Assembly (NCBI RefSeq): GCF_011326735.1
Contig: NZ_JAANCN010000004.1
Coordinates: 62,001-126,000 of the forward strand
Direction: 5' to 3'
DNA length: 64,000 nucleotides
DNA from: Phycicoccus endophyticus
GTDB taxonomy: Bacteria > Actinomycetota > Actinomycetes > Actinomycetales > Dermatophilaceae
Part shown: one piece after another, positions 45,459-61,559 of the stretch
Position numbering within the stretch: the first letter of the stretch is position 1
How the letters are laid out: the number at the start of each line of letters is the position of its first letter
Position numbers and translations under genes: made by a program
The notes under the pieces: model-generated
Seen by the model: only the letters and a program-made list of their open reading frames with translations
Databases searched by the model: none
Told to the model about the DNA's origin: nothing

Positions 45459-47060
45459 TCAACGCGGCGTGACGCCGGCGCGGACGAGGCCGTAGGTCAC
45501 CGACTCCACGAGGGCGTCCCAGCTCGCCTCGAGGATGTTCGGGGCCACGCCGATCGTCGTCCACGACGTCGTGCCGTCGGAGGTCTCGATGAGGACCCGG
45601 GTCACGGCGTCGGTGCCGTGCGCGGCATCGAGGATGCGCACCTTGTAGTCGATGAGCTCGAGGCCGGCGATCTCCGGGTAGGTGGCCGCGATGGCTGTGC
45701 GCAGGGCATGGTCGAGGGCGTTGACCGGGCCGTTGCCCTCGCCGGTCTCGACCCGCCGCTCCCCCGCCGTGCGCACCTTGACCGTGGCCTCGGACAGCGC
45801 CTCGCCCGCCCCCCGCGCGTCGGTGATGACCCGCCAGGACTCGACGGCGAAGAAGTCCGGCAGGGAGCCCTCGAGCTCGCGGCGCAGGAGCAGCTCGAAG
45901 CTGGCGTCGGCCGCGTCGAAGGTGTACCCCCGCAGCTCCTTCTCCTTGACGGTGGCGAGCACCCGCCGCAAGGTGGCCGCGTCGGTCTCGTCGCTCGCAT
46001 CGAGGGGGAAGCCGAGCTCGCGCGACTTCAGCTCGATCGACGCCCGGCCGGCCATGTCCGAGACGAGCATCCGCATGTCGTTGCCGACGTGCTTGGGGTC
46101 CAGGTGCTGGTAGAGGTCGGGGTCGACCTTGATGGCGCTCGCGTGCAGCCCCGCCTTGTGCGCGAACGCGCTCGAGCCGACGTACGGCTGACGGGAGTAG
46201 GCGGGCACGTTGGTGACCTCGGCGATGGCGTGCGCGATCCGCGTCGCGTCCTGGAGCCGGTGCGGCTCGAGCAGCTCGCGGCCCTGCTTGAGCTGGAGGT
46301 TGGCGACGAGGGTGAGCAGGTCGGCGTTGCCGGTCCGCTCGCCGTAGCCGTTGACGGTTCCCTGGACGTGCGTGGCGCCGGCGTCGACGGCGGCCATCGA
46401 GTTGGCCACCGCACAGCCGGTGTCGTTGTGGCAGTGGATGCCCACCCGAGCCCCCGTGGTGCGCACGACGTCGTCGACGACCTCGCCCACCTCGCCGGGG
46501 AGGAACCCCCCGTTGGTGTCGCACAGGGCGACGACCTCGGCCCCGGACTCCACAGCCGCCCGGACGACCTCGAGGGCGTAGGCGCGGTCGCTGCGGTAGC
46601 CGTCGAAGAAGTGCTCGGCGTCGAGGAAGACGCGCCGGCCCTCGCCGGTGAGGAAGGAGACGGTGTCCCGGACCATCTCGAGGTTCTCGGCGAGGGTCGT
46701 GCGCAGCGCTCGCTCGACGTGGCCGGTGTGCGACTTCGCGACGAGGGTGACGACCTGCGCCTGGCTGTCCAGGAGCGCCTGGACGAGCGGGTCGGTGGCC
46801 GCCCGACCGCCGGCGCGCCGGGTGGCGCCGAACGCGGCGAGCGTGGCGTGCCGCAGGTCCAGCTCGCGCGCCGCCCGGGCGAAGAACTCGGTGTCCTTGG
46901 GGTTGGCCCCGGGCCAGCCGCCCTCGATGTAGCCGACCCCCAGCTCGTCGAGATGCCCGGCGATCGCGAGCTTGTCGGCCACGGAGAGGTTGAGCCCCTC
47001 CTGCTGGGCGCCGTCGCGCAGCGTCGTGTCGTACACGTGCAGGTCGCTCATCTGCTCCAT
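45459..47060 (-). CDS. cimA: (R)-citramalate synthase
   Basis: Condenses acetyl-CoA and pyruvate to citramalate, giving 2-oxobutyrate for isoleucine without threonine. The 533-aa protein is the long CimA type. It starts DLHVYDTTLRDGAQQEGLNL, has the metal-binding HCHNDTGCAVANSMAAV and NGYGERTGNADL, and a C-terminal LeuA-type allosteric domain. The partner isomerase would be LeuCD and the dehydrogenase LeuB, both in this window. ATG at 47060; an in-frame ATG at 47051 is possible. A leader peptide and intrinsic terminator lie upstream. Confidence 0.93.
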   Translation of the reverse strand: MEQMSDLHVYDTTLRDGAQQEGLNLSVADKLAIAGHLDELGVGYIEGGWPGANPKDTEFFARAARELDLRHATLAAFGATRRAGGRAATDPLVQALLDSQAQVVTLVAKSHTGHVERALRTTLAENLEMVRDTVSFLTGEGRRVFLDAEHFFDGYRSDRAYALEVVRAAVESGAEVVALCDTNGGFLPGEVGEVVDDVVRTTGARVGIHCHNDTGCAVANSMAAVDAGATHVQGTVNGYGERTGNADLLTLVANLQLKQGRELLEPHRLQDATRIAHAIAEVTNVPAYSRQPYVGSSAFAHKAGLHASAIKVDPDLYQHLDPKHVGNDMRMLVSDMAGRASIELKSRELGFPLDASDETDAATLRRVLATVKEKELRGYTFDAADASFELLLRRELEGSLPDFFAVESWRVITDARGAGEALSEATVKVRTAGERRVETGEGNGPVNALDHALRTAIAATYPEIAGLELIDYKVRILDAAHGTDAVTRVLIETSDGTTSWTTIGVAPNILEASWDALVESVTYGLVRAGVTPR

Positions 47061-47386: not shown

Positions 47387-47447
47387 GCGCGAAGCATCCC
47401 ACGCGCCCGCCTCCGGCTCCAGCCGCCGTCCACATCGTGACCCCCGG

Positions 47448-47486
47448 CCGCCGGAAGACCTCTCCCGTCCATGCCGACATCGACAG
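47448..47486. repeat. Dispersed repeat unit, copy B1
   Basis: 39-nt unit beginning CCGCCGGAAGACCTCTCC and ending ATGCCGACATCGACAG. Its first 18 nt equal the arms of the palindrome at 39467. Matches copy B2 at 33 of 39 positions. Confidence 0.75.
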
Positions 47487-47582
47487 CCCACGGCCGACTC
47501 GCTCGACCATGGCGCCACAGCACCATGAACCAGCGACCTCGCCTCCCCCCAGCGAGCTCGCCGCCCACGGACGATCCACGCT

Positions 47583-47621
47583 CCACCGGGAGACCTCTGC
47601 CACCCATGCCGACATCGACAG
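47583..47621. repeat. Dispersed repeat unit, copy B2
   Basis: 39-nt unit in the same orientation as B1, 135 nt further on, with the identical 3' half CCATGCCGACATCGACAG. Confidence 0.75.
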
Positions 47622-47700
47622 GTCCAGGCACGACCGCCGGGCCGCGCCGAGCTCGACGGGCGGCCTACCCTGGGGCGAGCGCACCGACCCCGGGAGCACG

Positions 47701-48597
47701 ATGGACGACCACGGCGGCGACCTCAGCCGCGCACCGCTCGCCTACCCCGGGACGCCCGTGCCGGGGCCGCGGCTCCTGGTCGGCGACTGCGACCACACCG
47801 TGCGTCCGCGCCACACCCGCTCGCTCGCGGCGGCCCGCTCGGGCGGCTGCGTGCGGTGCGAGCTACCTCTCGGCCCGGGAGCCGAGACCGTGGAACGCAC
47901 CCTGCGCCGGCTCGGCGCCGCACCGCTCGCGGACCGCACCCCGGTGCTCGCCGTCGGCTCCAACGCCGCCGTGGCCGTTCTGCGGCACAAACTCACCGGA
48001 CGCGGCGTCGGCTGCGTCGTCCCGCTGCTCACCGGAGTCGTGCGCCATCTCGGTGTCGGGCACACCGCCTACGTCTCGCGCGGTGGCTACCTCCCGGCGG
48101 CACCGGTGCACCGCGCCCGGGCCCGGACCCCGGTCGTGCTCCAGCTGCTCGACGACGACCAGCTCGCGGCGGTCGACGCGACCGAGCCGGGCTACGTGCG
48201 CGTCGAGCTGTCGGCGACGGACTACCCTCTCCTGCTCGGCGGCGGGCTGCGCCCCACCCGCTACCACGTCTACGCCGCGCGGGCCGGCGTGCTCGGGCTG
48301 CCCGGAACCGGCCGTCGCCTCCTCCCCCAGCGCGAGGTCCTCGGCGCGCTGGCCGCGGCCGGGCTCCCGCACACCGGCTCCGACGACCCCCGCCGGGTCT
48401 CCGGCGAGCTCGCCCGGTCCGCACGCCGGCGCGACGAGCTGCGGGCCGCCCTCGAGGAGCGGGGGATGTCGTGGAGCTCCGGCCTGCGCCACCGCCCCGC
48501 TGGCCGCCTGCGCTGGCCCGAGGTCGCCCGCACGGGCTCGGCCGGTGCCCGCCGCCCCCGCGTCAGAGCCGCACGGCAGAGGCCGCGGCGGCGGTGA
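47701..48597 (+). CDS. Hypothetical protein, possibly gamma-glutamylcyclotransferase-like
   Basis: 298-aa protein that I do not firmly recognise. It has a central segment PVLAVGSNAAVAVLRHKL (about 83-100), reminiscent of the Y/AxGSN motif of gamma-glutamylcyclotransferases, followed by GVVRHLGVGHTAYVSRGGYL. A GDCDHTVRPRHTRSLAAARSGGCVRC region with two cysteines lies near the N-terminus (about 25-50). The ATG at 47701 has GGGAG upstream. Its 3' end overlaps the convergent hydrolase gene by 35 nt. Confidence 0.65.
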   Translation: MDDHGGDLSRAPLAYPGTPVPGPRLLVGDCDHTVRPRHTRSLAAARSGGCVRCELPLGPGAETVERTLRRLGAAPLADRTPVLAVGSNAAVAVLRHKLTGRGVGCVVPLLTGVVRHLGVGHTAYVSRGGYLPAAPVHRARARTPVVLQLLDDDQLAAVDATEPGYVRVELSATDYPLLLGGGLRPTRYHVYAARAGVLGLPGTGRRLLPQREVLGALAAAGLPHTGSDDPRRVSGELARSARRRDELRAALEERGMSWSSGLRHRPAGRLRWPEVARTGSAGARRPRVRAARQRPRRR

Positions 48598-49306
48598 CCA
48601 GCGCCGCGAACAGCTCGGCGCCCTCGGCCTCCTCCGCGTGCCACTGGACGGCGAGCCGGAAGCGCCCCGACGGCGACTCCATCGCCTCGAGGGTCCCGTC
48701 CTCGTGCCACGCGGCCGCACGCCAGCCGGTCCCCGCGAGCGACTCCGGCACGACGGCCTGGTGGTGGTAGGTCGGCACGTCGAGCGCTCCAGCGCCGACG
48801 ATGCCGGCCAGCACGGTGCCCGGGGCCGGCTCGACGGCGTGTACCGCGTACCGGCCCGGCGTCGGGGAGTGCCCCTCGTGCCCGACCCGGTCCGGGACGT
48901 GCTGCTCGAGCCGCCCACCGGCGGCCACCGCCATGACCTGCATGCCCCGGCAGATCCCGAGCATCGGCAGGTCGCCCTCCTCCGCGGCCCGCACGAGCGC
49001 GCTCTCCCAGCGGTCCCTGTCCGGGCGCGCGTCCTGAGAGCTCGGATGGGGGTCGGCCCCGTACAGCGCGGGCGCGACGTCGGCGCCGCCACCGACGACG
49101 AGGGCGTCGACCCGCTCCAGGACGGCACGGGCCATCGCCTCGTCGACGTCCGGGCGCGGCGGCAGCACGACGGCCACGCCCCCGGCCGCCTCGACCTGGG
49201 CCACGTACCGGTAGGGCAGCACGACGCTGCGCTGGCCGACCCAGGGGGCGCGGTCGACCTCCTCGACGTAGCTCGTGATGCCGACCAGCGGCCTCGGGCG
49301 GCTCAC
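48563..49306 (-). CDS. Gamma-glutamyl amide hydrolase (peptidase C26, PuuD-like)
   Basis: Class I glutamine-amidotransferase-like hydrolase that cleaves gamma-glutamyl bonds. The 247-aa protein has nucleophile Cys 119 in LGICRGMQ and the His-Glu pair in VQWHAEE (His 223, Glu 225). VGGGADVAPALYG and TYHHQAVV are typical of PuuD relatives. As last gene of the operon it would release glutamate from the oxidised product of the pathway. GTG start, 7 nt from the reductase stop. Confidence 0.9.
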   Translation of the reverse strand: MSRPRPLVGITSYVEEVDRAPWVGQRSVVLPYRYVAQVEAAGGVAVVLPPRPDVDEAMARAVLERVDALVVGGGADVAPALYGADPHPSSQDARPDRDRWESALVRAAEEGDLPMLGICRGMQVMAVAAGGRLEQHVPDRVGHEGHSPTPGRYAVHAVEPAPGTVLAGIVGAGALDVPTYHHQAVVPESLAGTGWRAAAWHEDGTLEAMESPSGRFRLAVQWHAEEAEGAELFAALVTAAAASAVRL

Positions 49307-49313
49307 CGCGGCA

Positions 49314-50081
49314 TCACACCGGCGTGACGTAGGCGCCGGAGATGCCGCCGTCGACGAGGAAGGTCGAGGCGGTCATGAAGCTCGACTCGTCGGAGGCGAG
49401 GAAGAGGACCGCGTTGGCCATCTCCTCCGGCTCGCCGAAGCGCCCCATGGGGACGTGCACGAGCCGGCGGGCGGCGCGCTCTGGGTCGGAGGCGAACAGC
49501 TCCTGCAGCAGCGGAGTGTTGACCGGCCCGGGGCACAGGGCGTTGACCCGGATGCCCTGGCGGGCGAACTGCACGCCGAGCTCGCGGGTCATCGACAGCA
49601 CCCCGCCCTTGGAGGCGGAGTAGGCGATCTGCGAGGTGGCAGCGCCCATGACGGCGACGAAGCTCGCGGTGTTGACGATCGACCCGCCGCCCTGCTCGAG
49701 CATGATCGGGATGACCGCCTTGCAGCACAGGTAGACCGAGGTGAGGTTGACCTCGTGCACCCGCCGCCACGCCTCGAGGTCGGTCTCGAGGATGGAGTCG
49801 TCCTCGGGCGGGCTGATCCCGGCGTTGTTGAAGGCGATGTCCACCCGGCCGTGCCGCTCGACGGCGGTGGCGAACAGGGCGTCGACGTCGTCCTTGACCG
49901 CGACGTCGCAGTGCACGTAGCTGCCACCGACCTCCGCGGCGAGCCGCTCGCCCTCGGCGTCGGCGAGGTCGGCCACGACGACGGTGGCACCCTCCTCGGC
50001 GAAGCGCCGCACGGTCGCGAGGCCGATGCCCGAGCAGCCGCCGGTGACGACGGCGACCTTGCCCGCGAGCCTGCCTGACAT
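49314..50081 (-). CDS. Short-chain dehydrogenase/reductase
   Basis: 255-aa classical [11 protein letters not shown] (13-20), NNAG (85-88), Ser 140, and Tyr 154/Lys 158 in YSASK. NAD is favoured by the Asp at the end of the second strand (VVVADLAD). In this operon the natural role is oxidation of the alcohol of a gamma-glutamylated amino alcohol to the aldehyde; that is inferred from context. It ends 7 nt before the hydrolase gene. Confidence 0.92.
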
Positions 50082-50119
50082 GGTTCTCTCCTGGGGTGTG
50101 AAGGGGCGAGGGCGGACGC

Positions 50120-51517
50120 TCAGCCCTCGGTGGCGATGAAGACGTTCTTGACCTCGGTGAAGGCGTCGAGGGCGTCCGGGCCGAGCTCGCGGCCGAGCCC
50201 ACTGGCCTTGAACCCCCCGAAGGGCGTGGAGTAGCGCACCGAGGAGTGGCTGTTCACCGAGAGGTTGCCGGCCTCCACGCCCCGGGCGACCCGCAGCGCG
50301 CGGCCGACGTCCCGGCTCCAGATCGAGCCCGAGAGCCCGTACTCGGTGTCGTTGGCCATGGACACGGCCTCCGCCTCGTCCTCGAAGGGCAGGACGGCGA
50401 CCACCGGGCCGAAGACCTCCTCGCGCCAGACCCGGTCACCGGTCCCTCCGGGCAGCACGACCGTCGGGGGGTACCACCAGCCGGCACCGTCGGGAGCGGT
50501 CCCGCGGAAGGCGACCTCGACGGGCGGGGCCTCGCCCGTGCCCTCGACGTACCCGCGCACCGTCTCGCGCTGGCCGGCGCTGACCAGCGGGCCCATCTGG
50601 CTGGCCTCGTCGCCCGGGTCACCGACGACGACGCCCTTGACGGCGACCTCGAAGCGCTCCATGAACGCGTCGAGGACGCTGCGCTGCACGAGGATCCGGG
50701 TCCGGGCGCAGCAGTCCTGGCCGGCGTTGTCGAGGAAGCTCATCGGCGCGGCCGCCGCGGCGGCGTCGAGGTCCGCGTCGGCGAAGACGATGTTCGCCGA
50801 CTTCCCCCCGAGCTCGAGGGTCACCCGCTTGAGGTGGTCCGCCGACCCGCGCAGCACGCGCTGGCCGACGGCGGTCGAGCCGGTGAAGACGACCTTGCGC
50901 ACGTCCGGGTGGGTGACGAACCGCTCCCCGACGACCGAGCCCTTCCCGGGCAGTACGGTGAGCACGCCCTCGGGGATGCCCGCCTCGAGGGCGAGCTCGC
51001 CGATCCGCATCGCGGTCAGCGGCGTGAGCTCGGCGGGCTTGAGCACGACGGTGTTCCCGGCGGCGAGGGCGGGAGCCATCCCCCAGCCCATGATCGGCAT
51101 CGGGAAGTTCCACGGCACGATGATGCCGACGACGCCGAGCGGTTCCTTGAACGTCACGTCGAGCCCGCCCGCGACGGGGATCTGCCGGCCGAAGAGCCGC
51201 TCCGGGGCGGCGCTGTAGTACCGCAGGACGTCGACGACGTTCCCGGCCTCCCAGCGCGCGTTGCCGATCGGGTGGCCGGCGTTGGCCACCTCGAGCCGGG
51301 CGAGCTCCTCGCGGTGCTCCTCGACGACGTCCGCGAAGCGGCGCAGCAGCCGGGCCCGGTCGGCGGGCGCGACCGCACGCCAGGCCGGGCCGGCAGCGAC
51401 GGCCCGGGCGACGGCGGCGTCGGTCTCCTCGAGACCGGCCAGCTCGACGCGTGTCACGACACGCTCGGTCGCCGGGTCGATGACCTCGTGGGTGGTGCTC
51501 ATCGGGGGCGTGCTCAC
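50120..51517 (-). CDS. NAD(P)-dependent aldehyde dehydrogenase
   Basis: 465-aa ALDH. Oxyanion Asn 137 (PWNFP), Lys 160, general base Glu 235 (LELGGKS), and the nucleophile in GQDCCARTR (Cys 269 or 270). It would oxidise the gamma-glutamyl aldehyde to the acid, the PuuC step. The GTG overlaps the stop of the glutamine synthetase-like gene (GTGA). An in-frame ATG at 51502 is an alternative start. Confidence 0.94.
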
Positions 51518-52899
51518 ATCCTCTCGAAGCCGCGGACCCGCTCCCAGTCCGTGACGGCGGCGCTGTAGGCGGCGATCTCGACGTCCGCGGCGTTGACGTA
51601 GTGCTCGACGACCTCGTCGCCGAAGGCCGCGCGGGCGACCTCGCTGCCGGCGAGCAGCTCACGGGCCTCGGCCAGGCTCGTCGGGACGTGGTCGACGTCG
51701 GCGGTGTAGGCGTTCCCCTCGAGCGGGTCGTCCAGGGGCAGCTCGTGCTCGATGCCGTGCAGCCCCCCGGCGAGCATCGCGGCGATCGCGAGGTAGGGGT
51801 TGACGTCACCTCCGGGCACCCGGTTCTCCATCCGCAGCCCCGCGCCGTGGCCGACGACCCGCAGGGCGCAGGTGCGGTTGTCCCTGCCCCAAGCCACGGC
51901 CGTCGGTGCGAACGACCCCGGCTGGAACCGCTTGTAGGAGTTGATGTTCGGTGCGTAGAAGTACGACAGCTCGCGAAGGGTCGACTGCACACCGGCGAGG
52001 AAGTGGTCGAAGAGCTCGCTCTGGCCCCCCGGTCGGGAGTCGTCGGCGAACACGAGCCGTCCGTCGGTGCCACGCAGCGAGAGGTGGATGTGGCAGGAGT
52101 TGCCCTCGCGTTCGTCGTACTTGGCCATGAAGGTCATCGACATCCCGTGGCGGGCCGCGATCTCCTTGGCCGCGGTCTTGTAGACGACGTGGTTGTCGCA
52201 CGTGCGGACGACGTCGTCGTAGAGGAAGGCGATCTCGTGCTGGCCGAGGTTGCACTCGCCCTTGGCCCCCTCGACGGTGCAGCCGGCGCGGTACATCTCG
52301 TTGCGGATCTCGCGCAGCACCGGCTCGACCTTGGTGCCGCCGAGGATGGAGTAGTCGACGTTGTACCGGTTGGCGCCGGTCAGGCCCTGGTAGCGGCGGT
52401 CCCAGGCGTCCTCGAAGCTGTTCTCGAAGAGGATGAACTCCAGCTCGGTGCCCGACACCGCCTGCCAGCCGCGCTCGGCGGCCCGCTCGACCTGGCTGTG
52501 GAGCATGGCGCGCGGGCTCTGGCGCACCGGGCCACTGCCGTCGAGCCACTGCAGGTCGCACTGGATGGTCACCGACCCCGGCTGACCGGGGGTGCGCCGC
52601 AGCGTCTCGAGGTCGAGGACGAACTCGAAGTCGCCGTAGCCGCGTTCCCACGAGGAGATGGCGTACCCCTCGACGGTGTTCATCTCGACGTCGACGGCCA
52701 GCAGGTAGTTGCAGCCCTCGGTGCCGTGCTCGAGGACGTGGTCGAGGAAGAACTGGGCGTGCAGCCGCTTGCCCGTCAGCCGGCCCTGCATGTCGGTGAA
52801 CGCGACGATGACGGTGTCGACGTCGCCGCTGGCGGTCTCGACGCGCAGCTGTTCGAGGGTGTACGGGGGCGGGCCCCCGGCGTGGATCGAGCTCGGCAT
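51514..52899 (-). CDS. Glutamine synthetase-like gamma-glutamyl-amine ligase
   Basis: 461-aa type I glutamine synthetase homologue of the GlnA3/GlnA4/PuuA group, ligating glutamate to an amine with ATP. Metal Glu residues are in TELEFILF (152, 154) and KGECNLGQHE (215, 222), the HIH segment is at 270-272, and MENRVPGGDVNPY is at about 357-369. The tyrosine adenylylation motif of true GlnA is not seen. The neighbours suggest a gamma-glutamyl-ethanolamide or polyamine ligase rather than ammonium assimilation. GGGAGG supports the ATG at 52899; an ATG at 52920 overlaps the regulator stop. Confidence 0.9.
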   Translation of the reverse strand: MPSSIHAGGPPPYTLEQLRVETASGDVDTVIVAFTDMQGRLTGKRLHAQFFLDHVLEHGTEGCNYLLAVDVEMNTVEGYAISSWERGYGDFEFVLDLETLRRTPGQPGSVTIQCDLQWLDGSGPVRQSPRAMLHSQVERAAERGWQAVSGTELEFILFENSFEDAWDRRYQGLTGANRYNVDYSILGGTKVEPVLREIRNEMYRAGCTVEGAKGECNLGQHEIAFLYDDVVRTCDNHVVYKTAAKEIAARHGMSMTFMAKYDEREGNSCHIHLSLRGTDGRLVFADDSRPGGQSELFDHFLAGVQSTLRELSYFYAPNINSYKRFQPGSFAPTAVAWGRDNRTCALRVVGHGAGLRMENRVPGGDVNPYLAIAAMLAGGLHGIEHELPLDDPLEGNAYTADVDHVPTSLAEARELLAGSEVARAAFGDEVVEHYVNAADVEIAAYSAAVTDWERVRGFERM

Positions 52900-52916
52900 G
52901 GTCCTCGTCCTCCCGG

Positions 52917-53645
52917 TCATCCGATGAAGCCGCGCAACAGCGCGGACGTCGCGTCGCAGTGCTCTTCCATCGCGGCCCGCGCCTCGTCGGCCGCTCCGGC
53001 GAGGACGGCGTCGAGGACCGCGTCGTGCTGGTCGTGCGAGTGCTGGATGTTGGTGCGCAGCACCGGGATCGCCTCGAGCAGCTCCCCGAGCGCGGCCTGC
53101 GCCCGGGTCACCGCCTCGATGAGCATCGGTGAGCCCGAGGCGGAGGCGAGGGCGAGGTGGAAGCGGCTGTCGGCGAGCCGGTGCGCACTGTCGCCCTCGG
53201 CGTCGCGGACCTGCCGGGCGGCGGCGACGAGCCAGGCGCGCTGCTCGCCGGCCAGCGGCTGCAGGGCGGCCAGCCGGGCGGCTCCGGGCTCGACGACGCG
53301 GCGGAAGTCGAGCGCGTCGACGAGCGCGGTCCCGACCCGAGGGGCCGGGCCGTCCTCGGGGGCGACCGCCGGCCCGTGGTAGGTGACGACGGTCCCCCCG
53401 CCGCGACCGCGGCGGGTGCGGACCAGGCCGGCGTCGCGCAGCGCGGCGATGGCCTCGCGCAGCGTGTTGCGGGCCACGCCGAGGCGCTCGGCGAGCTCGC
53501 GCTCGGGGGGCAGCTGGTCGCCGTCGACGAAGACACCGAGGCGGATCGCGGTGACCAGCTGCTCGACGGTGGACTCGAAGACGTTGGTCCCCCGGCTCGG
53601 GCGCAGCACCTGTTCGACGAGGTGCAGGTGGGGCTGCGCGGTCAT
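52917..53645 (-). CDS. GntR/FadR-family regulator of the amine cluster
   Basis: 242-aa regulator with a GntR winged helix (about 23-90: TVEQLVTAIRLGVF, LPPERELAERLGVARNTLREAI) and an all-helical FCD domain containing DSRFHLALASASGSP and HDAVLDAV. FCD domains bind small carboxylates or metals. It heads the five-gene operon. An ATG with a TTGACA/GAGACT promoter 7 nt upstream suggests a leaderless mRNA, and an operator lies just beyond the -35. Confidence 0.92.
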   Translation of the reverse strand: MTAQPHLHLVEQVLRPSRGTNVFESTVEQLVTAIRLGVFVDGDQLPPERELAERLGVARNTLREAIAALRDAGLVRTRRGRGGGTVVTYHGPAVAPEDGPAPRVGTALVDALDFRRVVEPGAARLAALQPLAGEQRAWLVAAARQVRDAEGDSAHRLADSRFHLALASASGSPMLIEAVTRAQAALGELLEAIPVLRTNIQHSHDQHDAVLDAVLAGAADEARAAMEEHCDATSALLRGFIG

Positions 53646-53652
53646 GGCCGTG

Positions 53653-53682
53653 AGTCTCCGGCGCGGACGCCACCGCTGTCAA
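53653..53682 (-). promoter_or_regulatory. Promoter of the FadR-led operon
   Basis: Read toward the regulator: TTGACA (53677-53682), 18-nt spacer, GAGACT (53653-53658), then 7 nt to the ATG. The -35 is consensus and the -10 is weak. Confidence 0.5.
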
Positions 53683-53684
53683 AT

Positions 53685-53700
53685 GGTGCTCGTTCACACC
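53685..53700. promoter_or_regulatory. Candidate FadR-type operator
   Basis: GGTG-N8-CACC immediately beyond the -35 of the regulator promoter, inside the 195-nt divergent region. GntR/FadR proteins usually bind short GGT/ACC-type palindromes, so this could control both directions. Confidence 0.4.
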
Positions 53701-53742
53701 TTTTTTACACGCAGGCTCTGGACGCCCCGTGCGCGCCGGGGC

Positions 53743-53748
53743 TAGCCT
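53743..53748 (+). promoter_or_regulatory. -10 hexamer of the permease gene
   Basis: TAGCCT about 92 nt before the permease GTG, with a CTGGAC-like -35 19 nt upstream. Weak support. Confidence 0.3.
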
Positions 53749-53840
53749 CCCGTGCGTTCGGTCCCGTCGCGCACCACGTGCGCACCCCCACCCCGGGCCT
53801 CGGTCGCGCCGGCCGGAGCACCGACGAGAGGACGGCCAGC

Positions 53841-55400
53841 GTGTCGCAGAACTCCACGGGCTCTAGCCCCCGCCGCAGGTCGAGCGTGACCTACGCCACG
53901 GCCGAGGCCGACTACTTCGACAAGCGCGGGCTCACCCGGCACGCCGGTGCGTGGTCGCTGTGGGCACTCGGTGTCGCCGCGGTCATCTCCGGTGACTTCT
54001 CCGGCTGGAACCTGGGCATCGGCGAGGCGGGATGGGGCGGGATGCTCCTCGCGACCGTCGTCATCGGCCTGATGTACCTGCTGATGATCTACTCGATCGC
54101 CGAGATGTCCGCCGCCATGCCGCACACCGGCGGTGCGTACTCCTTCGCCCGCTCGGCGATGGGCCCGTGGGGCGGCTTCGTCACGGGCCTCGCGGAGTCC
54201 ATCGAGTACGTCATCACCACCGCCGTGGTCGGGGTGTTCGCCGGAACCTACGCCGACAGCATCACCGACGACCTCTTCGGCCTCTCCCTGCCGCTGTGGC
54301 TGTGGGTGGTCATCTTCTACATCATCTTCGTCGGCCTGAACTCGGCCGGCGCGGAGGCCTCGTTCAAGTTCGCCGTCGTCATCGCCATCGTCTCGCTCGG
54401 GGTGCTGGCGCTCTTCGCGGTCCTCGCCCTGACCTCGGGCACGTTCTCCTGGGACAACCTCTGGGACGTCGGCGGGGGCGGCTTCCTCCCGCTCGGGGCG
54501 GGCGGCGTGCTCGCCGCGCTGCCCTTCGCCATCTGGTTCTTCCTCGGGATCGAGGAGCTGCCCCTGGCCGCCGAGGAGACCCACACCCCCGCCCAGGACA
54601 TCCCGCGTGGCTCGCTCATGGGGATGTTCACCCTGCTCGCGACGGCCTTCGTCGTCCTCGTGCTCAACCCGGGGGTCGTCGGAGCGGAGAAGATCTCCGG
54701 CAGCGGCGAGCCGATCCTCGAGGGGTTCCGCGCGATCTTCCCCGACAGCAACATCGCCTCTCTCCTCGCGCTCTTCGCCCTTGCGGGGCTCGTCGCCTCC
54801 TTCCAGGGGATCATGTTCGCCGCGGGCCGCAACCTGTACTCGCTCTCGCGGGCGGGCTACTACCCGCAGGCCCTCTCGCTCACCGGGTCCCGCAAGGTCC
54901 CCTACCTCGCCCTCGTCACCGGCGCCGCCATCGGCGTCCTGCTCGTGGTCCTGCTCACCCTGGTGCGCAACGAGCCGGGCGAGAGCTCCTACGACGCCAC
55001 CGTCGCGGTCGCCGGCGAGCTGCTCAACATCGCGGTGTTCGGCGCGGTCATCGCCTACGTGCTCCAGATGGTCTCGTTCGTCATGCTCCGCCGGAAGTTC
55101 CCCAACGCCGAGCGGCCCTACCGCAGCCCGGTCGGGGTCGGCGGTGCGGTGGTCGCGGCGGTCATCGCCGCCGGCACCCTGGTCATCCTGCCGTTCAACC
55201 CCGACTACCGGGCGGTCGTCCTCGGGGTCGCCGCCTTCTTCGCGGTCGGCCTGGCGTACTTCGCCATCCGCGGTCGCCACCACCTCGTGTACTCCCCCGA
55301 GGAGGAGTACGCGACCTCCGGCGGCCTGCACGGCGCCCACCCCGAGACCGAGGGGTACGACGTCACCGACCGCGAGGCCGACGCGCACGACGCCCCCTGA
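53841..55400 (+). CDS. APC-superfamily permease, ethanolamine (EAT) type
   Basis: 519-aa, 12-helix amino acid/amine transporter. The N-terminus FDKRGLTRHAGAWSLWALGV, then AVISGDFSGWNLG, IAEMSAAMPHTGGAYSFAR and GPWGGFVTGLAESIEYV match the ethanolamine permease subgroup. The C-terminal 40 residues are acidic and cytoplasmic. It is divergent from the FadR-led operon and would supply its substrate. The GTG at 53841 is supported by AGAGGA about 8 nt upstream; the frame is open much further up without homology. Confidence 0.88.
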   Translation: MSQNSTGSSPRRRSSVTYATAEADYFDKRGLTRHAGAWSLWALGVAAVISGDFSGWNLGIGEAGWGGMLLATVVIGLMYLLMIYSIAEMSAAMPHTGGAYSFARSAMGPWGGFVTGLAESIEYVITTAVVGVFAGTYADSITDDLFGLSLPLWLWVVIFYIIFVGLNSAGAEASFKFAVVIAIVSLGVLALFAVLALTSGTFSWDNLWDVGGGGFLPLGAGGVLAALPFAIWFFLGIEELPLAAEETHTPAQDIPRGSLMGMFTLLATAFVVLVLNPGVVGAEKISGSGEPILEGFRAIFPDSNIASLLALFALAGLVASFQGIMFAAGRNLYSLSRAGYYPQALSLTGSRKVPYLALVTGAAIGVLLVVLLTLVRNEPGESSYDATVAVAGELLNIAVFGAVIAYVLQMVSFVMLRRKFPNAERPYRSPVGVGGAVVAAVIAAGTLVILPFNPDYRAVVLGVAAFFAVGLAYFAIRGRHHLVYSPEEEYATSGGLHGAHPETEGYDVTDREADAHDAP

Positions 55401-55414
55401 CCCGCGCGGGCGGC

Positions 55415-55451
55415 CCGGCCCGGCGTGGCGCTCCGGCGTCACCCGGGCCGG
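55415..55451. terminator. Hairpin between permease and ilvE
   Basis: 9-bp arms CCGGCCCGG and CCGGGCCGG with a 19-nt loop, located between two convergent genes. No T-run on either strand. Confidence 0.5.
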
Positions 55452-55466
55452 TCGCCCGGCCGGCCC

Positions 55467-56561
55467 TCAGGCCAGGCGCGTCAGCCAGCCGTGGGTGTCC
55501 TCGGCCCGGCCGTACTGCAGGTCGAGCAGGGCGGCGCGCAGCGAGCGGGTGACCTCGCCCCCCTGCTCACCGGCCGTCGACGGTGCCTCGCCACCCTCCC
55601 AGCGCAGCGCCCCGACAGGGGTGACGACGGCGGCGGTCCCGCACGCGAAGACCTCGCGGATGCTCCCGTCGCGCACGCCGTCCTTCCACTCGGCGATCTC
55701 GATGCGCCGCTCCTGCGGGGTGAGACCGAGGTCCTTGGCCAGCTCGAGGATGGAGCCTCGGGTGACGCCCTCGAGGATGGTGCCGGTGAGCTCGGGGGTC
55801 ACGAGCCGGCCGTCGTCGGTGACGAAGAACAGGTTCATCCCCCCGAGCTCCTCGATGTAGGTGTGCGTCGCCGAGTCCAGGAAGACGGCCTGGTCGCAGC
55901 CGTGCTCGATGCCCTCGAGCTGTCCGGCGAGCGAGGAGGCGTAGTTCCCCCCGGTCTTGGCCGCGCCGGTCCCGCCGGCCCCGGCCCGGGCGTAGTGCTC
56001 CGAGACCCACAGGGTGACCGGCTGCAGCCCGCCGGCGAAGTAGGCGCCCGCGGGCGAGGCGATGACCGAGTAGGTCACCTCGGCCGCGGGGCGCACCCCG
56101 AGGAACGCCTCGGAGGCGTACATGAAGGGGCGCAGGTAGAGGCTGGTCTCCCCGGTGCCGGCGGCCGGGACCCACGCCTGGTCGACCTGCACGAGGGCCT
56201 CGAGCGAGGCGAGGAAGTCCTCGGTCGCGAGCTCGGGCAGCGCGAGCCGGCGCGCGCTGCGCTGCATCCGCTCGGCGTTGGCCTCCGGGCGGAAGGACCA
56301 CACCGAGCCGTCCTCGTGGCGGTAGGCCTTCAGCCCCTCGAAGACCTCCTGGGCGTAGTGCAGGACGGCGGCGCTCGGCATGAGGCTCACCGGGCCGTAG
56401 GCATGGACCCGGGCGTCGTGCCAGCCGGCGTCGCGGGTCCACGTGGCGGTGGCCATGTGGTCGGTGAAGTGCACGCCGAACCCCGGGTCGGCGAGGATCT
56501 CGGTGCGTCGCTCGTCGCTCGTGGGGTCGGGCCGGCGCTGGAGGTCGAAGGTCAGGCTCAT
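55467..56561 (-). CDS. ilvE: Branched-chain amino acid aminotransferase
   Basis: Final transamination of Ile, Leu and Val synthesis, and the first step of their degradation. The 364-aa fold-type IV PLP enzyme is of the long (bacterial/eukaryotic BCAT) class. YAQEVFEGLKAYR (about 69-81), the Schiff-base Lys in AAKTGGNYASSL, and EELGGMNLFFV are present. The ATG at 56561 is chosen. It is 113 nt downstream of the leuB stop on the same strand. Confidence 0.95.
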   Translation of the reverse strand: MSLTFDLQRRPDPTSDERRTEILADPGFGVHFTDHMATATWTRDAGWHDARVHAYGPVSLMPSAAVLHYAQEVFEGLKAYRHEDGSVWSFRPEANAERMQRSARRLALPELATEDFLASLEALVQVDQAWVPAAGTGETSLYLRPFMYASEAFLGVRPAAEVTYSVIASPAGAYFAGGLQPVTLWVSEHYARAGAGGTGAAKTGGNYASSLAGQLEGIEHGCDQAVFLDSATHTYIEELGGMNLFFVTDDGRLVTPELTGTILEGVTRGSILELAKDLGLTPQERRIEIAEWKDGVRDGSIREVFACGTAAVVTPVGALRWEGGEAPSTAGEQGGEVTRSLRAALLDLQYGRAEDTHGWLTRLA

Positions 56562-56674
56562 GGGAGGTCTCGGTCCTTTCCTCGGGAGGCGGCGACGCTG
56601 CCCGAGCAGGCTACCCGCCCGGGCTCGGACGGGTGGGGTGGGAGGAACCCACGGCCGAGCGGGGGTCGGCCGGG

Positions 56675-57748
56675 TCAGACGCGGGCGGCGATGGCGTCGC
56701 CGACGGCGCTCGTGGAGCGGGGGGAGCTCCCGCGCTCGGCGAGGTCGGCGGCCACCGCCTGCTCTACTCGCTCGGCGGCCTCGCCGAGCCCGACGTGGGC
56801 CAGCAGCATCGCCACCGACAGCACGGTCGCCGTCGGGTCGGCCGCGCCCGTTCCGGCGATGTCCGGGGCCGAGCCGTGCACCGGCTCGAACATGCTCGGG
56901 AAGCGTCGCTCGGGGTTGATGTTCCCGCTCGCCGCCAGCCCGATGCCACCGGCGATGGCGGCCGCGATGTCGGTGATGATGTCACCGAAGAGGTTGTCGG
57001 TGACGACGACGTCGAAGCGCCCGGGGTCGGTCGCGAGGAAGATCGTCGCGGCGTCGACGTGCTGGTAGGCGGTCTCGACGTCGGGGAAGTCCGCGGCGAC
57101 CTCCTCGACGGTGCGTCGCCACAGGTGGCCGGCGTGGGTGAGCACGTTGTGCTTGTGCACGAGCGTCAGGTGCCGACGGGGGCGGGCCTGGGCGCGGGCG
57201 AAGGCGTCGCGGACGACCCGCTCGACCCCGAAGCGGGTGTTGACGCTCACCTCGGTGGCGACCTCGTGCGGGGTGCCGGTGCGCAGTGCGCCACCGTTGC
57301 CGACGTACGGCCCCTCGGTGCCCTCCCGGACGACGAGGAAGTCGATGCCCTGGGGGGCGACCCGCTCGACGGCCAGCGGTGACTCCACGCCCGGGTAGAG
57401 GCGGGCCGGGCGGAGGTTGACGTAGTGCTCGAGCGCGAAGCGCAGCGGCAGCAGCACCCCGCGCTCGAGGACCCCGCTCGGGACGCTGGGGTCGCCGATC
57501 GCCCCGAGGAGGATGGCGTCGTGCGCCGAGACCTCGGCGAGGACGGACTCCGGCAGGGTCTCCCCCGTCGCGTGCCAGCGCCGCGCACCGAGGTCGTACT
57601 CGGTCGTCGTGACCTTCGGCCCGGCCGACCCGAGGGCGGCCTCGAGCACCTTGAGCCCCTCGGCGACGACCTCGGGTCCGATGCCGTCGCCGGCGATGAC
57701 GGCGAGGTCGAGCGTCGCCGGGGCGGCGCCGGCTGCGGTGTCCGTCAT
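56675..57748 (-). CDS. leuB: 3-isopropylmalate dehydrogenase
   Basis: Oxidative decarboxylation of 3-isopropylmalate (leucine) and 3-methylmalate in the citramalate route. 357 aa, actinobacterial type. [11 protein letters not shown] (about 18-28), the arginine-binding [17 protein letters not shown], and [20 protein letters not shown] are clear, and [12 protein letters not shown] binds NAD. ATG at 57748, exactly 7 nt after a TAGGGT hexamer, so probably leaderless. The in-frame GTG at 57757 lies inside that hexamer and is rejected. Confidence 0.95.
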
Positions 57749-57755
57749 GACCCCC

Positions 57756-57761
57756 ACCCTA
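57756..57761 (-). promoter_or_regulatory. -10 hexamer of leuB
   Basis: TAGGGT in leuB sense with 7 nt to the ATG, matching the lepB arrangement exactly. A -35 is not obvious. Confidence 0.5.
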
Positions 57762-57781
57762 GAGAGCCGTTCCGGGATGCG

Positions 57782-57816
57782 GACGGCCGTCCCATCCCGT
57801 GGATGGGACGGCCGTC
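57782..57816 (-). terminator. Hairpin after the 31-codon ORF, upstream of leuB
   Basis: 14-bp perfect stem (GACGGCCGTCCCAT/ATGGGACGGCCGTC) with a 7-nt loop, 14 nt after the small ORF stop. No T-run follows. It separates that ORF from the leuB promoter. Confidence 0.7.
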
Positions 57817-57829
57817 GCTCGCGGACCGC

Positions 57830-57925
57830 TCAGTCGTCACTGTGGCCCTGGTCGCGCAGGTCCATCGACTCCTGGAGGGCCTGGCGGGCCAGGGTCGCCT
57901 CGTCGGTCGTCGTCTCGGTGTTCAT
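57830..57925 (-). CDS. Small 31-aa protein between serA and leuB
   Basis: Too short for usual gene finders. ATG at 57925, 31 residues: MNTETTTDEATLARQALQ, then ESMDLRDQGHSDD. It is acidic and probably helical from residue 8 on. A GAGAGA sequence lies 4 nt upstream as a weak ribosome site, and a strong hairpin follows the stop. I recognise no family. It lies downstream of the branched-chain leader peptide on the same strand. Confidence 0.5.
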   Translation of the reverse strand: MNTETTTDEATLARQALQESMDLRDQGHSDD

Positions 57926-58039
57926 GGTCTCTCGCATTCCGCGGCCGGTGGCCGCGTCCGGGGATGGCTCGGCGCTCGAGCCGGCAGCTGCCGGCGAGCG
58001 GTCAGCGACGTCGCGGGGTCTCCGCGGCGAGGGTGCTGA
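57926..58039 (-). promoter_or_regulatory. Structured leader after the VVLLI peptide
   Basis: In the sense strand GTCAGC pairs with GCTGAC around an inner CGCGG/CCGCG stem (58001-58040 region), then a CCGGCAGCTGCCGG palindrome, then GCGGCC-ACC-GGCCGC just before the small ORF. There is no T-run, so termination or ribosome-site masking are both possible. Confidence 0.45.
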
Positions 58040-58090
58040 CTACCGGACCTCGCCGCGGCCGGGAATGAGGAGTACCACGCGCCGCGTCAT
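58040..58090 (-). CDS. Branched-chain-rich leader peptide
   Basis: 16-residue frame MTRRVVLLIPGRGEVR, ending TAG. It holds Val-Val-Leu-Leu-Ile in a row (GTG GTA CTC CTC ATT). A TACTAT -10 hexamer lies 10 nt upstream, so the peptide is at the very 5' end of the transcript. Followed by stable hairpins. This is the layout of an amino-acid attenuator; its target would be the small ORF and/or leuB. Confidence 0.6.
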   Translation of the reverse strand: MTRRVVLLIPGRGEVR

Positions 58091-58100
58091 GCCAGCGACG

Positions 58101-58106
58101 ATAGTA
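58101..58106 (-). promoter_or_regulatory. -10 hexamer of the leader transcript
   Basis: TACTAT in the sense strand, preceded by an unusually A-rich GGAAAGATGG. A -35 is not convincing. A start near 58094 would leave a 4-nt leader before the peptide ATG. Confidence 0.45.
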
Positions 58107-58187
58107 GGACGTCCATCTTTCCGCGAGCGGCTTCCCAGGATGCGGACCGCCGACGGGCGGCCGAGTGCGCCGCAGGGGCGCCGGGCC

Positions 58188-59774
58188 TCAGCCGAGCTCG
58201 ACGGTGCGTACCGTGTCGGCCCCGATCTCGGCCCCGATCGCCGCGACGACCTCGTCCGGGATGGGGCTGTCGACGGTGAGCGCGACGAGCGCCGAGCCGG
58301 TGTCGTCGTTGCGCGAGACCTGCATCGCGGCGATGTTCACGTCGGCGTCCCCGAGCAGCCGACCCAGGGCACCGATGACGCCGGGGCGGTCGACGTAGGA
58401 GAAGAAGGCCATGTTGCTGCTCAGCGGGACCTCGAGGTCGTAGCCGTTGACGCCGATGACCTTCTGGACCATCTTCGGCCCGGTCAGGGTGCCCGAGACC
58501 GACACGCTGCTGCCGTCGGCGAGCGTGCCGTGCAGGGTCGTGACGTTGCGGAACTCCTCGGAGGTGGCGTCGGTGACCAGGCGCGACTCGCACCCGCGCT
58601 CGGCGGCGAGCAGCGGCGCGTTGACGTAGGTGACCGGGTCCTCGGTGACGTCGGTGAAGAGCCCCTTGAGCGCCGACAGCTCCCAGACCGAGACGTCGTG
58701 GGCGGTGATCTCGCCACGCACCTCGACGTCGAGCTGCACCGGCACCGAGCCGGCGATGGCCGTGAAGATCCGGCCGAGCTTCTCGACGAGGTCGATCCCG
58801 GGCCGGACCTCCTCGGCGACCGCACCACCGGAGACGTTGACGGCGTCGGGGACGAGGTCGCCCCCGAGGGCGAGCCGCACCGAGCGGGCGACGGCCACCC
58901 CCGCCTTCTCCTGGGCCTCGTCGGTCGAGGCACCGAGGTGGGGCGTGACGACGACGGACTCGTGCTCGAACAGCGGGCTGTCCGTGCACGGCTCGGTCGC
59001 GAAGACGTCCAGGCCGGCACCGGCCACCCGGCCGTCGGCGATCGCCTCGGCGAGCGCCTCCTCGTCGAGGACGCCGCCGCGGGCGGCGTTGACGATGCGC
59101 ACCGTGGGCTTGACCTTGGCCAGGGCCTCCTTGCCGATGAGGCCGAGGGTCTCGGGCGTCTTCGGCAGGTGGATGGTGATGAAGTCGGACTCGGCGAGCA
59201 GCTCGTCGAGGGTGACCAGCCGGGCGCCGAGCTGACCGGCGCGCTGGACGGAGACGTACGGGTCGTAGGCGAGGATCTCGACCCCGAAGCCCTTGAGTCG
59301 CTCGGCGACGAGCTGGCCGATCCGGCCGAAGCCGACGATGCCGATCTTCTTCTCCAGCAGCTCGACGCCGCCGTACTTGCTGCGCTTCCAGGCCCCGGCC
59401 TTCAGGGCCGCGTTCGCCGGGGCGATGTTGCGGGCCGCGGCGAGGAGCAGGCCGACGGCGAGCTCGGCGGCGGAGGTGATGTTCGAGGTCGGGGCGTTGA
59501 CGACCATGACGCCGGCCTTGGTCGCGGCGTCGACGTCGACGTTGTCCAGGCCGACACCGGCGCGGGCGATGACCTTGAGGCTCTTCGCGGCGGCGATCGC
59601 CTCGGGGTCCATCTTCGTCGCCGAGCGGATGAGCACGGCATCGACGTCGGCGAGCGCCGGCAGCAGCTGGGAGCGGTCCGCGCCGTCGGTGTGGCGCACC
59701 TCGAAGTCGGGGCCGAGGGCATCGATGGTCGCGGGCGAGAGCTCCTCGGCGATGAGGACGACGGGCTTGGTCAC
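58188..59774 (-). CDS. serA: D-3-phosphoglycerate dehydrogenase
   Basis: First step of serine synthesis from glycolysis. The 528-aa length is that of type I (long) PGDH as in Mycobacterium: catalytic/NAD domains (IVGFGRIGQLVAERL; ARGGVLDEEAL; PHLGASTDEAQ with active-site His), an intervening domain (about 315-450) and a C-terminal ACT domain (DRPGVIGALGRLLGDADVNIA) that senses serine. GTG start at 59774. It is placed between ilvC and leuB on the same strand, as in many actinobacteria. Confidence 0.96.
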   Translation of the reverse strand: MTKPVVLIAEELSPATIDALGPDFEVRHTDGADRSQLLPALADVDAVLIRSATKMDPEAIAAAKSLKVIARAGVGLDNVDVDAATKAGVMVVNAPTSNITSAAELAVGLLLAAARNIAPANAALKAGAWKRSKYGGVELLEKKIGIVGFGRIGQLVAERLKGFGVEILAYDPYVSVQRAGQLGARLVTLDELLAESDFITIHLPKTPETLGLIGKEALAKVKPTVRIVNAARGGVLDEEALAEAIADGRVAGAGLDVFATEPCTDSPLFEHESVVVTPHLGASTDEAQEKAGVAVARSVRLALGGDLVPDAVNVSGGAVAEEVRPGIDLVEKLGRIFTAIAGSVPVQLDVEVRGEITAHDVSVWELSALKGLFTDVTEDPVTYVNAPLLAAERGCESRLVTDATSEEFRNVTTLHGTLADGSSVSVSGTLTGPKMVQKVIGVNGYDLEVPLSSNMAFFSYVDRPGVIGALGRLLGDADVNIAAMQVSRNDDTGSALVALTVDSPIPDEVVAAIGAEIGADTVRTVELG

Positions 59775-59878
59775 GTGCGGGGTCCCTCTTCCGTGCGGTG
59801 TGATGGCCGGCGACGGCCACGCGGCAGGCCGGGGTGCCGCGGCACTCCATGGTAGGCGCCGCACGCCGGGGGCCCGGC

Positions 59879-59899
59879 GGCGCCCGCCATGTGGGCGCC
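59879..59899 (-). terminator. Hairpin after the DedA-like gene
   Basis: GGCGCCC/GGGCGCC with a 7-nt loop, 12 nt beyond the stop at 59911 and before serA. No T-run. Confidence 0.4.
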
Positions 59900-59910
59900 C
59901 GGGCCGGCCC

Positions 59911-60411
59911 TCACCTCTCCCGTGGGGGCCGACCCGGCCCGCCGGCGCCCTCGGCCTCGACGCGGCGGCGCACCCGGCGCCCCACGAGCACCGCGGCCGA
60001 GAGGAGCGCGGCGGCGAGCAGCAGCCACCACCACGGCAGCCGCCCGAGGGCGGCGTCGACGACCGCGAGCCCCACGGTCGTGTAGAGGAGCGCCCAGAGC
60101 AGCGCACCGGCGGCCACGGCGGGCGCGAACCGTCGCAGGGGCATCCGCAACGCCCCCGAGGAGGCGTTGATCGCCGTCTGCAGGCCCACCGTGAGGAAGC
60201 CCAGGGTCACCGCCGGCGGGCCCACCCGGCGCACGAAACGCTCGGCACGGGCCACGCCCGGGCGCTCGAGGTGACGCGCCCAGCGGGTACGGGCCCCTCC
60301 GGCGCGCACGCCGCGACCGAGCCAGTACGTGGCGGTGCCGCGCGCGAGCGCGCCCAGCCAGAACGCGAGCAGGACGACCCAGAACGGCCAGCCGTCGACG
60401 AGGTCCTCCAC
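59911..60411 (-). CDS. DedA/VTT-type small membrane protein
   Basis: 166-aa protein with about four hydrophobic segments. The pattern WLGALARGTATYWLGRGVR, GPPAVTLGFLTVGLQTAINASSG, and RRFAPAVAAGALLWALLYT matches the DedA/SNARE-associated group, though short and missing the usual first helices. The role may be in lipid flipping or envelope homeostasis, as for the family; specific function unknown. GTG start; between ilvC and serA. Confidence 0.7.
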   Translation of the reverse strand: MEDLVDGWPFWVVLLAFWLGALARGTATYWLGRGVRAGGARTRWARHLERPGVARAERFVRRVGPPAVTLGFLTVGLQTAINASSGALRMPLRRFAPAVAAGALLWALLYTTVGLAVVDAALGRLPWWWLLLAAALLSAAVLVGRRVRRRVEAEGAGGPGRPPRER

Positions 60412-60432
60412 CCGCCCAGCCTAGGAGTGACC

Positions 60433-60459
60433 GGGCACCCGTGCCCCCACCCGGTGGGG
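60433..60459 (-). terminator. Hairpins after ilvC
   Basis: Two adjacent stems, GGGCAC/GTGCCC and CCCCACC/GGTGGGG, share a few bases and could be alternative folds. Located 9 nt after the ilvC stop; no T-run. Confidence 0.45.
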
Positions 60460-60467
60460 CGGTGGGG

Positions 60468-61559
<1,092 letters not shown>

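Follow-up and report, generated by a model that had tools for sequence, protein, structure and literature searches.

A glnA4-type gene cluster in Phycicoccus endophyticus with a predicted gamma-glutamylation route for ethanolamine, a candidate operator and alternating permeases

We analyzed a window of 64,000 nucleotides from the actinobacterium Phycicoccus endophyticus (contig NZ_JAANCN010000004.1, positions 62,001 to 126,000). Six adjacent genes at positions 48563-55400 of this window very probably form a glnA4-type ethanolamine-utilization operon with its permease. Five tightly packed genes lie on the minus strand and are divergent from a plus-strand permease gene (Table 1). They would be transcribed in the order regulator, ligase, aldehyde dehydrogenase (ALDH), short-chain dehydrogenase/reductase (SDR) and hydrolase. 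The regulator and ligase genes overlap by 4 bp, as do the ligase and ALDH genes, and the remaining gaps measure 38 bp (ALDH to SDR) and 7 bp (SDR to hydrolase). Proteins of the locus were assigned to families with Pfam and NCBIfam profile scans. All six genes were verified, and the scans confirmed the families that a first-pass annotation, made from the letters of the DNA, had proposed for a five-gene operon facing an EAT-type permease.

In the proposed pathway, the EAT-type permease would import ethanolamine and the GlnA4-type ligase would join it, at the expense of ATP, to the gamma-carboxyl group of glutamate. The SDR would then oxidize the free alcohol of gamma-glutamylethanolamide to an aldehyde with NAD(P), the ALDH would convert this aldehyde into gamma-glutamylglycine, and the hydrolase (peptidase C26) would release glutamate and glycine. 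The glycine could be used by the glycine decarboxylase present in the genome. The FCD-domain regulator would repress both arms of the locus through one palindrome between the regulator and permease genes. We infer the activities of all the cluster proteins, and that of the operator, from sequence.

The residues of the ligase argue for this assignment. We mapped onto it the metal, glutamate, ADP and flap positions published for Streptomyces coelicolor GlnA4 (SCO1613). The mapping went through the Streptomyces adustus ortholog, which keeps the SCO1613 numbering over its N-terminal half and differs from it by a uniform 4 positions over the C-terminal half; D69 and D81 of SCO1613 fall outside the mapped set. 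Fourteen of the 15 mapped residues are identical, and the only change is V189 to I. In a residue alignment, the ligase shares the pair E269 and F331 with each of the five GlnA4-cluster orthologs compared and with locus L124. At these two positions the genome's two other glutamine synthetase (GS) proteins have N/E and A/E, Escherichia coli PuuA has A/Y, and the two distant ligases of loci L129 and L130 have P/A and P/V.

In a 32-row tree, the ligase groups with cluster ligases from Streptomyces, Nocardioides and Intrasporangiaceae, and the genome's two other GS proteins, PuuA and two distant ligases fall outside this GlnA4-like group. The fork that unites the 27 GlnA4-like rows has a support of 89/99, slightly below the level of a starred fork, with PuuA and the genome's own GS proteins on long branches. 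The ligase joins those of Knoellia remsis and genome G122 (96/94), and these three form a five-row group with Phycicoccus and genome G080 (100/97). The first-pass annotation had called for a phylogeny against GlnA3, GlnA4, PuuA and IpuC; the tree places the ligase among GlnA4-like proteins and apart from PuuA, and it does not include GlnA3, IpuC or SCO1613 itself. Among the matches listed, the closest named ligases are those of K. remsis (82% identity) and Phycicoccus sonneratiae (81%). Among solved chains, 11zs and 5dm3 come closest (389 bits each; the next scores 161). We take 5dm3 to be the enzyme of Chromohalobacter salexigens, although a literature search on the code gave no confirmation.

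Four GlnA4-like proteins (L126, L127, L128 and L131, from genomes G135, G065, G107 and G079) are 44-50% identical and lie within the GlnA4 group of the tree, on long branches. Metal-binding positions are replaced in all of them (six of six in L126-L128, three of six in L131), and no SDR, ALDH or hydrolase homologs were found in the 16-18 kb around them. They appear to have kept the GS fold but lost catalytic activity.

To place the cluster among its relatives, we kept 80 related loci from at least 580 confirmed relatives found in a contig scan of genomes. The ligase has an SDR neighbor in 79 of these loci, an ALDH in 79, a hydrolase in 77, a regulator homolog in 75 and an EAT-type permease in 30. 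Because the SDR, ALDH, hydrolase and regulator recur across the 80 loci, the association of these genes is more than chance. Some gaps fall at locus ends: the locus without SDR and ALDH (L070) ends right after the ligase, and one without a hydrolase (L054) starts right before the regulator. Gene order varies, and the commonest arrangement (22 of 80) has hydrolase, permease and regulator opposite ligase, ALDH and SDR. A ligase match at E ≤ 1e-60 occurs in 35 of 149 genomes sampled from the same order, P. endophyticus included.

Key catalytic residues of the three downstream enzymes are conserved as well. Ser140, Tyr154 and Lys158 of the SDR are present in 79 of 79 related copies, and Asn85 in 77 of 79; the closest solved chain is 4wec (382 bits; the next scores 207). 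All 79 ALDH copies retain Asn137, Glu235 and Cys269, and all 77 hydrolase copies retain Cys119, His223 and Glu225.

We found no other ethanolamine route of the Eut type. The absence of EutBC and microcompartment genes, first reported for the vicinity of the cluster, extends to the whole 3.18-Mb assembly, which gave no matches to EutB (PF06751), EutC (PF05985) or the microcompartment shell protein (PF00936), with an E. coli positive control each time. With gene content and residues, this makes the ethanolamine pathway with an SDR in place of PuuB, as put forward in the first-pass annotation, the best-supported reading of the locus; its claim to novelty did not stand.

Indeed, the gene set and the pathway reading are already published for Streptomyces (Krysenko et al. 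2019, PMC6529630). That paper describes, in the legend of its Fig. 2, a cluster with an SDR, an ALDH, glnA4, a regulator, a putative ethanolamine transporter and a glutamine amidotransferase. S. coelicolor GlnA4 glutamylates ethanolamine with a Km of 0.47 mM and is reported to be specific for it, and glnA4 is required for growth on ethanolamine (PMC6529630). The alcohol, aldehyde and gamma-glutamylglycine steps are proposed in the Discussion of the same paper and worded with "may" and "might". We saw no assay of the SDR, ALDH or hydrolase step in the literature consulted on the glutamylation route. The P. endophyticus locus thus shares with the Streptomyces glnA4 cluster (SCO1610-SCO1615, with epuRI and the permease SPRI_5940; PMC6529630) six functions, the proposed route and the absence of eut genes, and differs in having regulator, ligase, ALDH, SDR and hydrolase in one operon. 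The published Streptomyces set also counts a membrane protein, orf1. A single self-contained locus for this route, which had been thought notable, has counterparts both in Streptomyces and in Phaeobacter (PMC10132767).

Other published operons take the same steps with different parts. In the study of Westermann et al. (2023, PMC10132767), proteins of the Phaeobacter operon were more abundant on phosphorylethanolamine, and reference is made to Chromohalobacter and Agrobacterium. The operons of C. salexigens, Agrobacterium tumefaciens and Phaeobacter MED193 are likewise described as carrying out glutamylation, alcohol oxidation, aldehyde oxidation and hydrolysis to glycine and glutamate (PMC10132767, PMC9397018), but they use a TRAP transporter (the EtoX TRAP system), whereas P. 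endophyticus has an APC permease. C. salexigens has a dehydrogenase of the iron-dependent type (PF00465) and, for hydrolysis, an enzyme of the formylglutamate amidohydrolase type (PF05013; Table 2 of the review PMC9397018), in place of the SDR and the C26-type hydrolase of the actinobacterial sets. The locus therefore mainly extends the range of a known pathway, and as a compact single operon it would allow each step to be reconstituted.

A glutamylated amino-alcohol intermediate is also oxidized by alcohol and aldehyde dehydrogenases in the isopropylamine pathway of Pseudomonas sp. KIE171 (IpuC and its partners).

The same four-step chemistry could act on another small amino alcohol, such as isopropanolamine, alaninol or propanolamine, and the product would then be gamma-glutamyl-alanine or a beta-amino acid in place of gamma-glutamylglycine. 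No feature of the SDR, the ALDH or the hydrolase sets a chain length. Isopropanolamine, isopropylamine and propanolamine are not mentioned in the main text of PMC6529630, Fig. 8 labels aside, so the published specificity may not address them. Variants for other substrates may exist, since genome G097 has a GlnA4-type ligase and also a second gene set around a 33%-identical ligase. On the other hand, the mapped positions carry the residues of the ethanolamine ligase, and the permease fits the ethanolamine permease model far above any other (the next-best NCBIfam model reaches 124 bits). We consider another amino alcohol unlikely, and infer that ethanolamine, not a close amino alcohol, is the substrate of the P. 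endophyticus ligase.

Gamma-glutamylation of putrescine or another polyamine, as in the E. coli Puu pathway (PuuP-A-D-R-C-B-E), is less probable still. The ligase, ALDH and hydrolase are homologs of PuuA, PuuC and PuuD, but the ligase is only 31% identical to PuuA (38% for the ALDH and PuuC, and 28% over 249 aligned columns for the hydrolase and PuuD) and the residues at E269 and F331 are unlike those of PuuA. The six cluster genes include neither a counterpart of the FAD amine oxidase PuuB nor an aminotransferase, and the SDR would take the oxidation step instead. In addition, a glnA4 mutant of S. coelicolor still grows on putrescine, cadaverine and spermidine (PMC6529630). The notion that the ligase is an ordinary glutamine synthetase, or another ammonium-handling enzyme with accidental neighbors, can be set aside almost entirely: it does carry the GS catalytic domain and metal ligands, but it has Phe at the position of the GS flap Glu, it is outscored on the Gln-synt_C model by the genome's two other GS-domain proteins, and its SDR, ALDH and hydrolase neighbors recur in 77-79 of the 80 loci.

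Some observations weigh against the assignment of the locus to ethanolamine. The permease matches the ethanolamine permease model TIGR00908 with 368 bits (E = 6.5e-110), just below the cut-off of 381.75. The best NCBI model of the SDR is NF004713 (477.7 bits, cut-off 404), which is named 3-oxoacyl-ACP reductase. Loci L052 and L083, neither of which is cut by a contig end close to the cluster, lack a recognizable hydrolase within reach. Locus L124 has E269 and F331 yet no SDR, ALDH or hydrolase neighbor, so this pair alone does not predict the cluster. Finally, the ligase shares 64-67% identity with the listed copies from Streptomyces, and a neighboring amino alcohol is therefore possible as its substrate.

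The regulator probably acts through an inverted repeat. EpuRI, its counterpart by position in S. coelicolor, has been shown to act as a repressor and to bind promoters. In gel shifts, EpuRI binds the glnA4 and epuRI promoters and several others (PMC8998196), and its regulon in S. coelicolor is thus wider than the cluster. Short FCD-type patterns (TGGT-N1-5-ACCA and similar) gave one match in 20 upstream regions and none in the window. Upstream of the regulator in relatives, we instead found the inverted repeat AATGGT-N10-ACCATT, derived from the window together with 19 upstream regions of relatives, a set without Streptomyces. We scored this motif over 14 positions with a 10-base spacer and a threshold of 11 in the 1.37 Mb of the 80 loci. 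A spacer of 10 gave 72 sites, compared to 2, 2, 8, 5, 4 and 0 for spacers of 7, 8, 9, 11, 12 and 13. Most of the 72 sites (56, in 49 of the 80 loci) lie upstream of a cluster gene, at most 400 bp from its start, compared to 7 of 21 for the other spacers. The 61 loci that were not used for motif discovery form an independent set, and 39 of them have a site near a cluster gene.

In the window, the site at 53681-53704 is the best in 64 kb (13/14), and the next best scores 9/14. The pattern AAWGGT-N10-ACCWTT has one perfect match in the 3.18-Mb genome, between the regulator and permease genes, and none at one mismatch; since the pattern and its W were fixed after the window copy was known, this perfect match is not independent evidence. 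At up to two mismatches, 0.23 matches are expected per window by chance. The genome has 22 sites with two mismatches, compared to 10 for a reversed-pattern control, and these were not counted as operator sites, many being codon-like words. Some counts weigh against the motif as the operator: 31 of the 80 loci have no site near a cluster gene at the threshold (seven of these have one before another permease), one of three further cluster regions has none (best 9; the other two have a site of 12), and one of eight regions around distant ligases has a site of 11. The inverted repeat AATGGT-N10-ACCWTT is nevertheless probably the operator of the regulator. The words "operator" and "palindrom" do not occur in the main texts, supplements aside, of PMC6529630 and PMC8998196, and a wider literature search gave no other description. 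If the operator is true, the regulon would be predictable from sequence in many actinobacteria.

The sites away from the cluster genes bear on transport. Of the remaining 16 sites, eight, in seven loci, begin 37-115 bp ahead of the earliest possible start of another type of APC permease (L034 twice, L035, L037, L040, L044, L062 and L102). One example of this second type is the Knoellia remsis permease at 6650-8197 of L034. Four of these second-type permeases were checked with Pfam and belong to AA_permease_2; two were checked with NCBIfam and are nearest to TIGR00907 (2A0304), below its cut-off. Within the available stretch of the 80 loci, 30 have an EAT-type permease, 23 the second type, none both and 27 neither. 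The two types both belong to the APC superfamily and are thus not unrelated, and some of the 23 second-type proteins share no more than 37-43% identity with the two queries. The window permease is 37-59% identical to the EAT-type permeases of the 30 loci, with 37-42% for the Streptomyces permeases listed, and only weakly similar to PuuP (22% over 275 columns). The Streptomyces permeases are stated to have no similarity to Eat (PMC6529630). S. coelicolor M145 is reported to lack a specific ethanolamine permease.

On balance, we favor a broader proposal: across Actinomycetota, an ethanolamine-glutamylation regulon may be organized around a single conserved operator, AATGGT-N10-ACCWTT, to which the FCD regulator would bind. 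The slot under this operator would be filled interchangeably by an EAT-type or a 2A0304-nearest permease, and the operator would thus point to a second, so far unrecognized family of ethanolamine permeases and, in some genomes, to further amino-alcohol cluster variants. If the operator holds, the alternation would make the second permease type a candidate family of ethanolamine transporters, open to direct testing. The operator, the alternation and a fixed site between cimA and ilvE, described below, are apparently new, and all three are predictions.

Table 1 Features of the P. endophyticus locus, with profile scores and predicted roles
Feature	Positions	Strand	Match	Predicted role
PuuD-like hydrolase (class-I glutamine-amidotransferase fold, peptidase C26)	48563..49306	-	PF07722 199 bits	predicted gamma-glutamylglycine hydrolase
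SDR	49314..50081	-	PF13561 (adh_short_C2) 244 bits	predicted NAD(P)-dependent gamma-glutamylethanolamide dehydrogenase
Aldehyde dehydrogenase	50120..51517	-	PF00171 (Aldedh) 534 bits	predicted oxidizer of gamma-glutamylated aminoacetaldehyde
GlnA4-type glutamine-synthetase-like ligase	51514..52920 (alternative start at 52899)	-	PF00120 (Gln-synt_C) 330 bits	predicted gamma-glutamylethanolamide synthetase
GntR-family FCD regulator	52917..53645	-	PF07729 (FCD) 66 bits; PF00392 (GntR) 58.7 bits	EpuRI counterpart by position
Predicted operator AAATGGT-N10-ACCTTTT	53681..53704	strandless	13/14 to palindrome	
EAT-type APC permease	53841..55400	+	TIGR00908 368 bits; PF00324 (AA_permease) 140 bits	predicted ethanolamine uptake

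The genes cimA and ilvE, which flank the cluster region, were identified by hidden Markov models. The cluster lies between them in the P. endophyticus window and in two other members of the family, with cimA-ilvE spacings of 8.4, 11.1 and 6.8 kb. In five family members that have both genes and no ligase, the distance is 0.3, 0.5, 1.2, 1.5 and 3.0 kb; two further members gave no cimA match. Both genes are visible in eight of the 80 loci, with the cluster between them in seven and both on one side of it in L039. A simple reading is that the cluster was gained or lost at one fixed site between cimA and ilvE.

The surroundings belong to a region of branched-chain amino acid biosynthesis (55467-61499 and 45459-47060, both on the minus strand), where open reading frames (ORFs) resembling LeuB, SerA and IlvC, recognized by eye only, lie farther along. 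An ORF at 47437-48597 (plus strand) is convergent with the hydrolase gene, overlaps it slightly and is a candidate gene only. Pfam and NCBIfam scans at E 0.001 gave no match for it, and the by-eye idea of a gamma-glutamylcyclotransferase was dropped. A scan of 48400-55600 gave no sigma-70 promoters or terminators.

Two loci from metagenome-assembled genomes (L036, 5619-8102, and L039, 6225-8207) have a DAO and GcvT fusion adjoining the cluster, like dimethylglycine and sarcosine dehydrogenases. A role in one-carbon or glycine metabolism, downstream of ethanolamine, would be in keeping with such a fusion.

The second, divergent set in genome G097 (L130, 5981-12633 of contig C43) shares with the P. 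endophyticus proteins identities of 33% (ligase), 40% (SDR), 35% (ALDH), 38% (hydrolase) and 34% (regulator), and includes an APC-type permease weakly like PuuP. Its ligase is the one with Pro and Val at the positions of GlnA4 Glu269 and Phe331, and its best operator-like site (just 10/14) starts 25 bp before the longest start of the permease. This set is possibly a parallel pathway for another amino alcohol.

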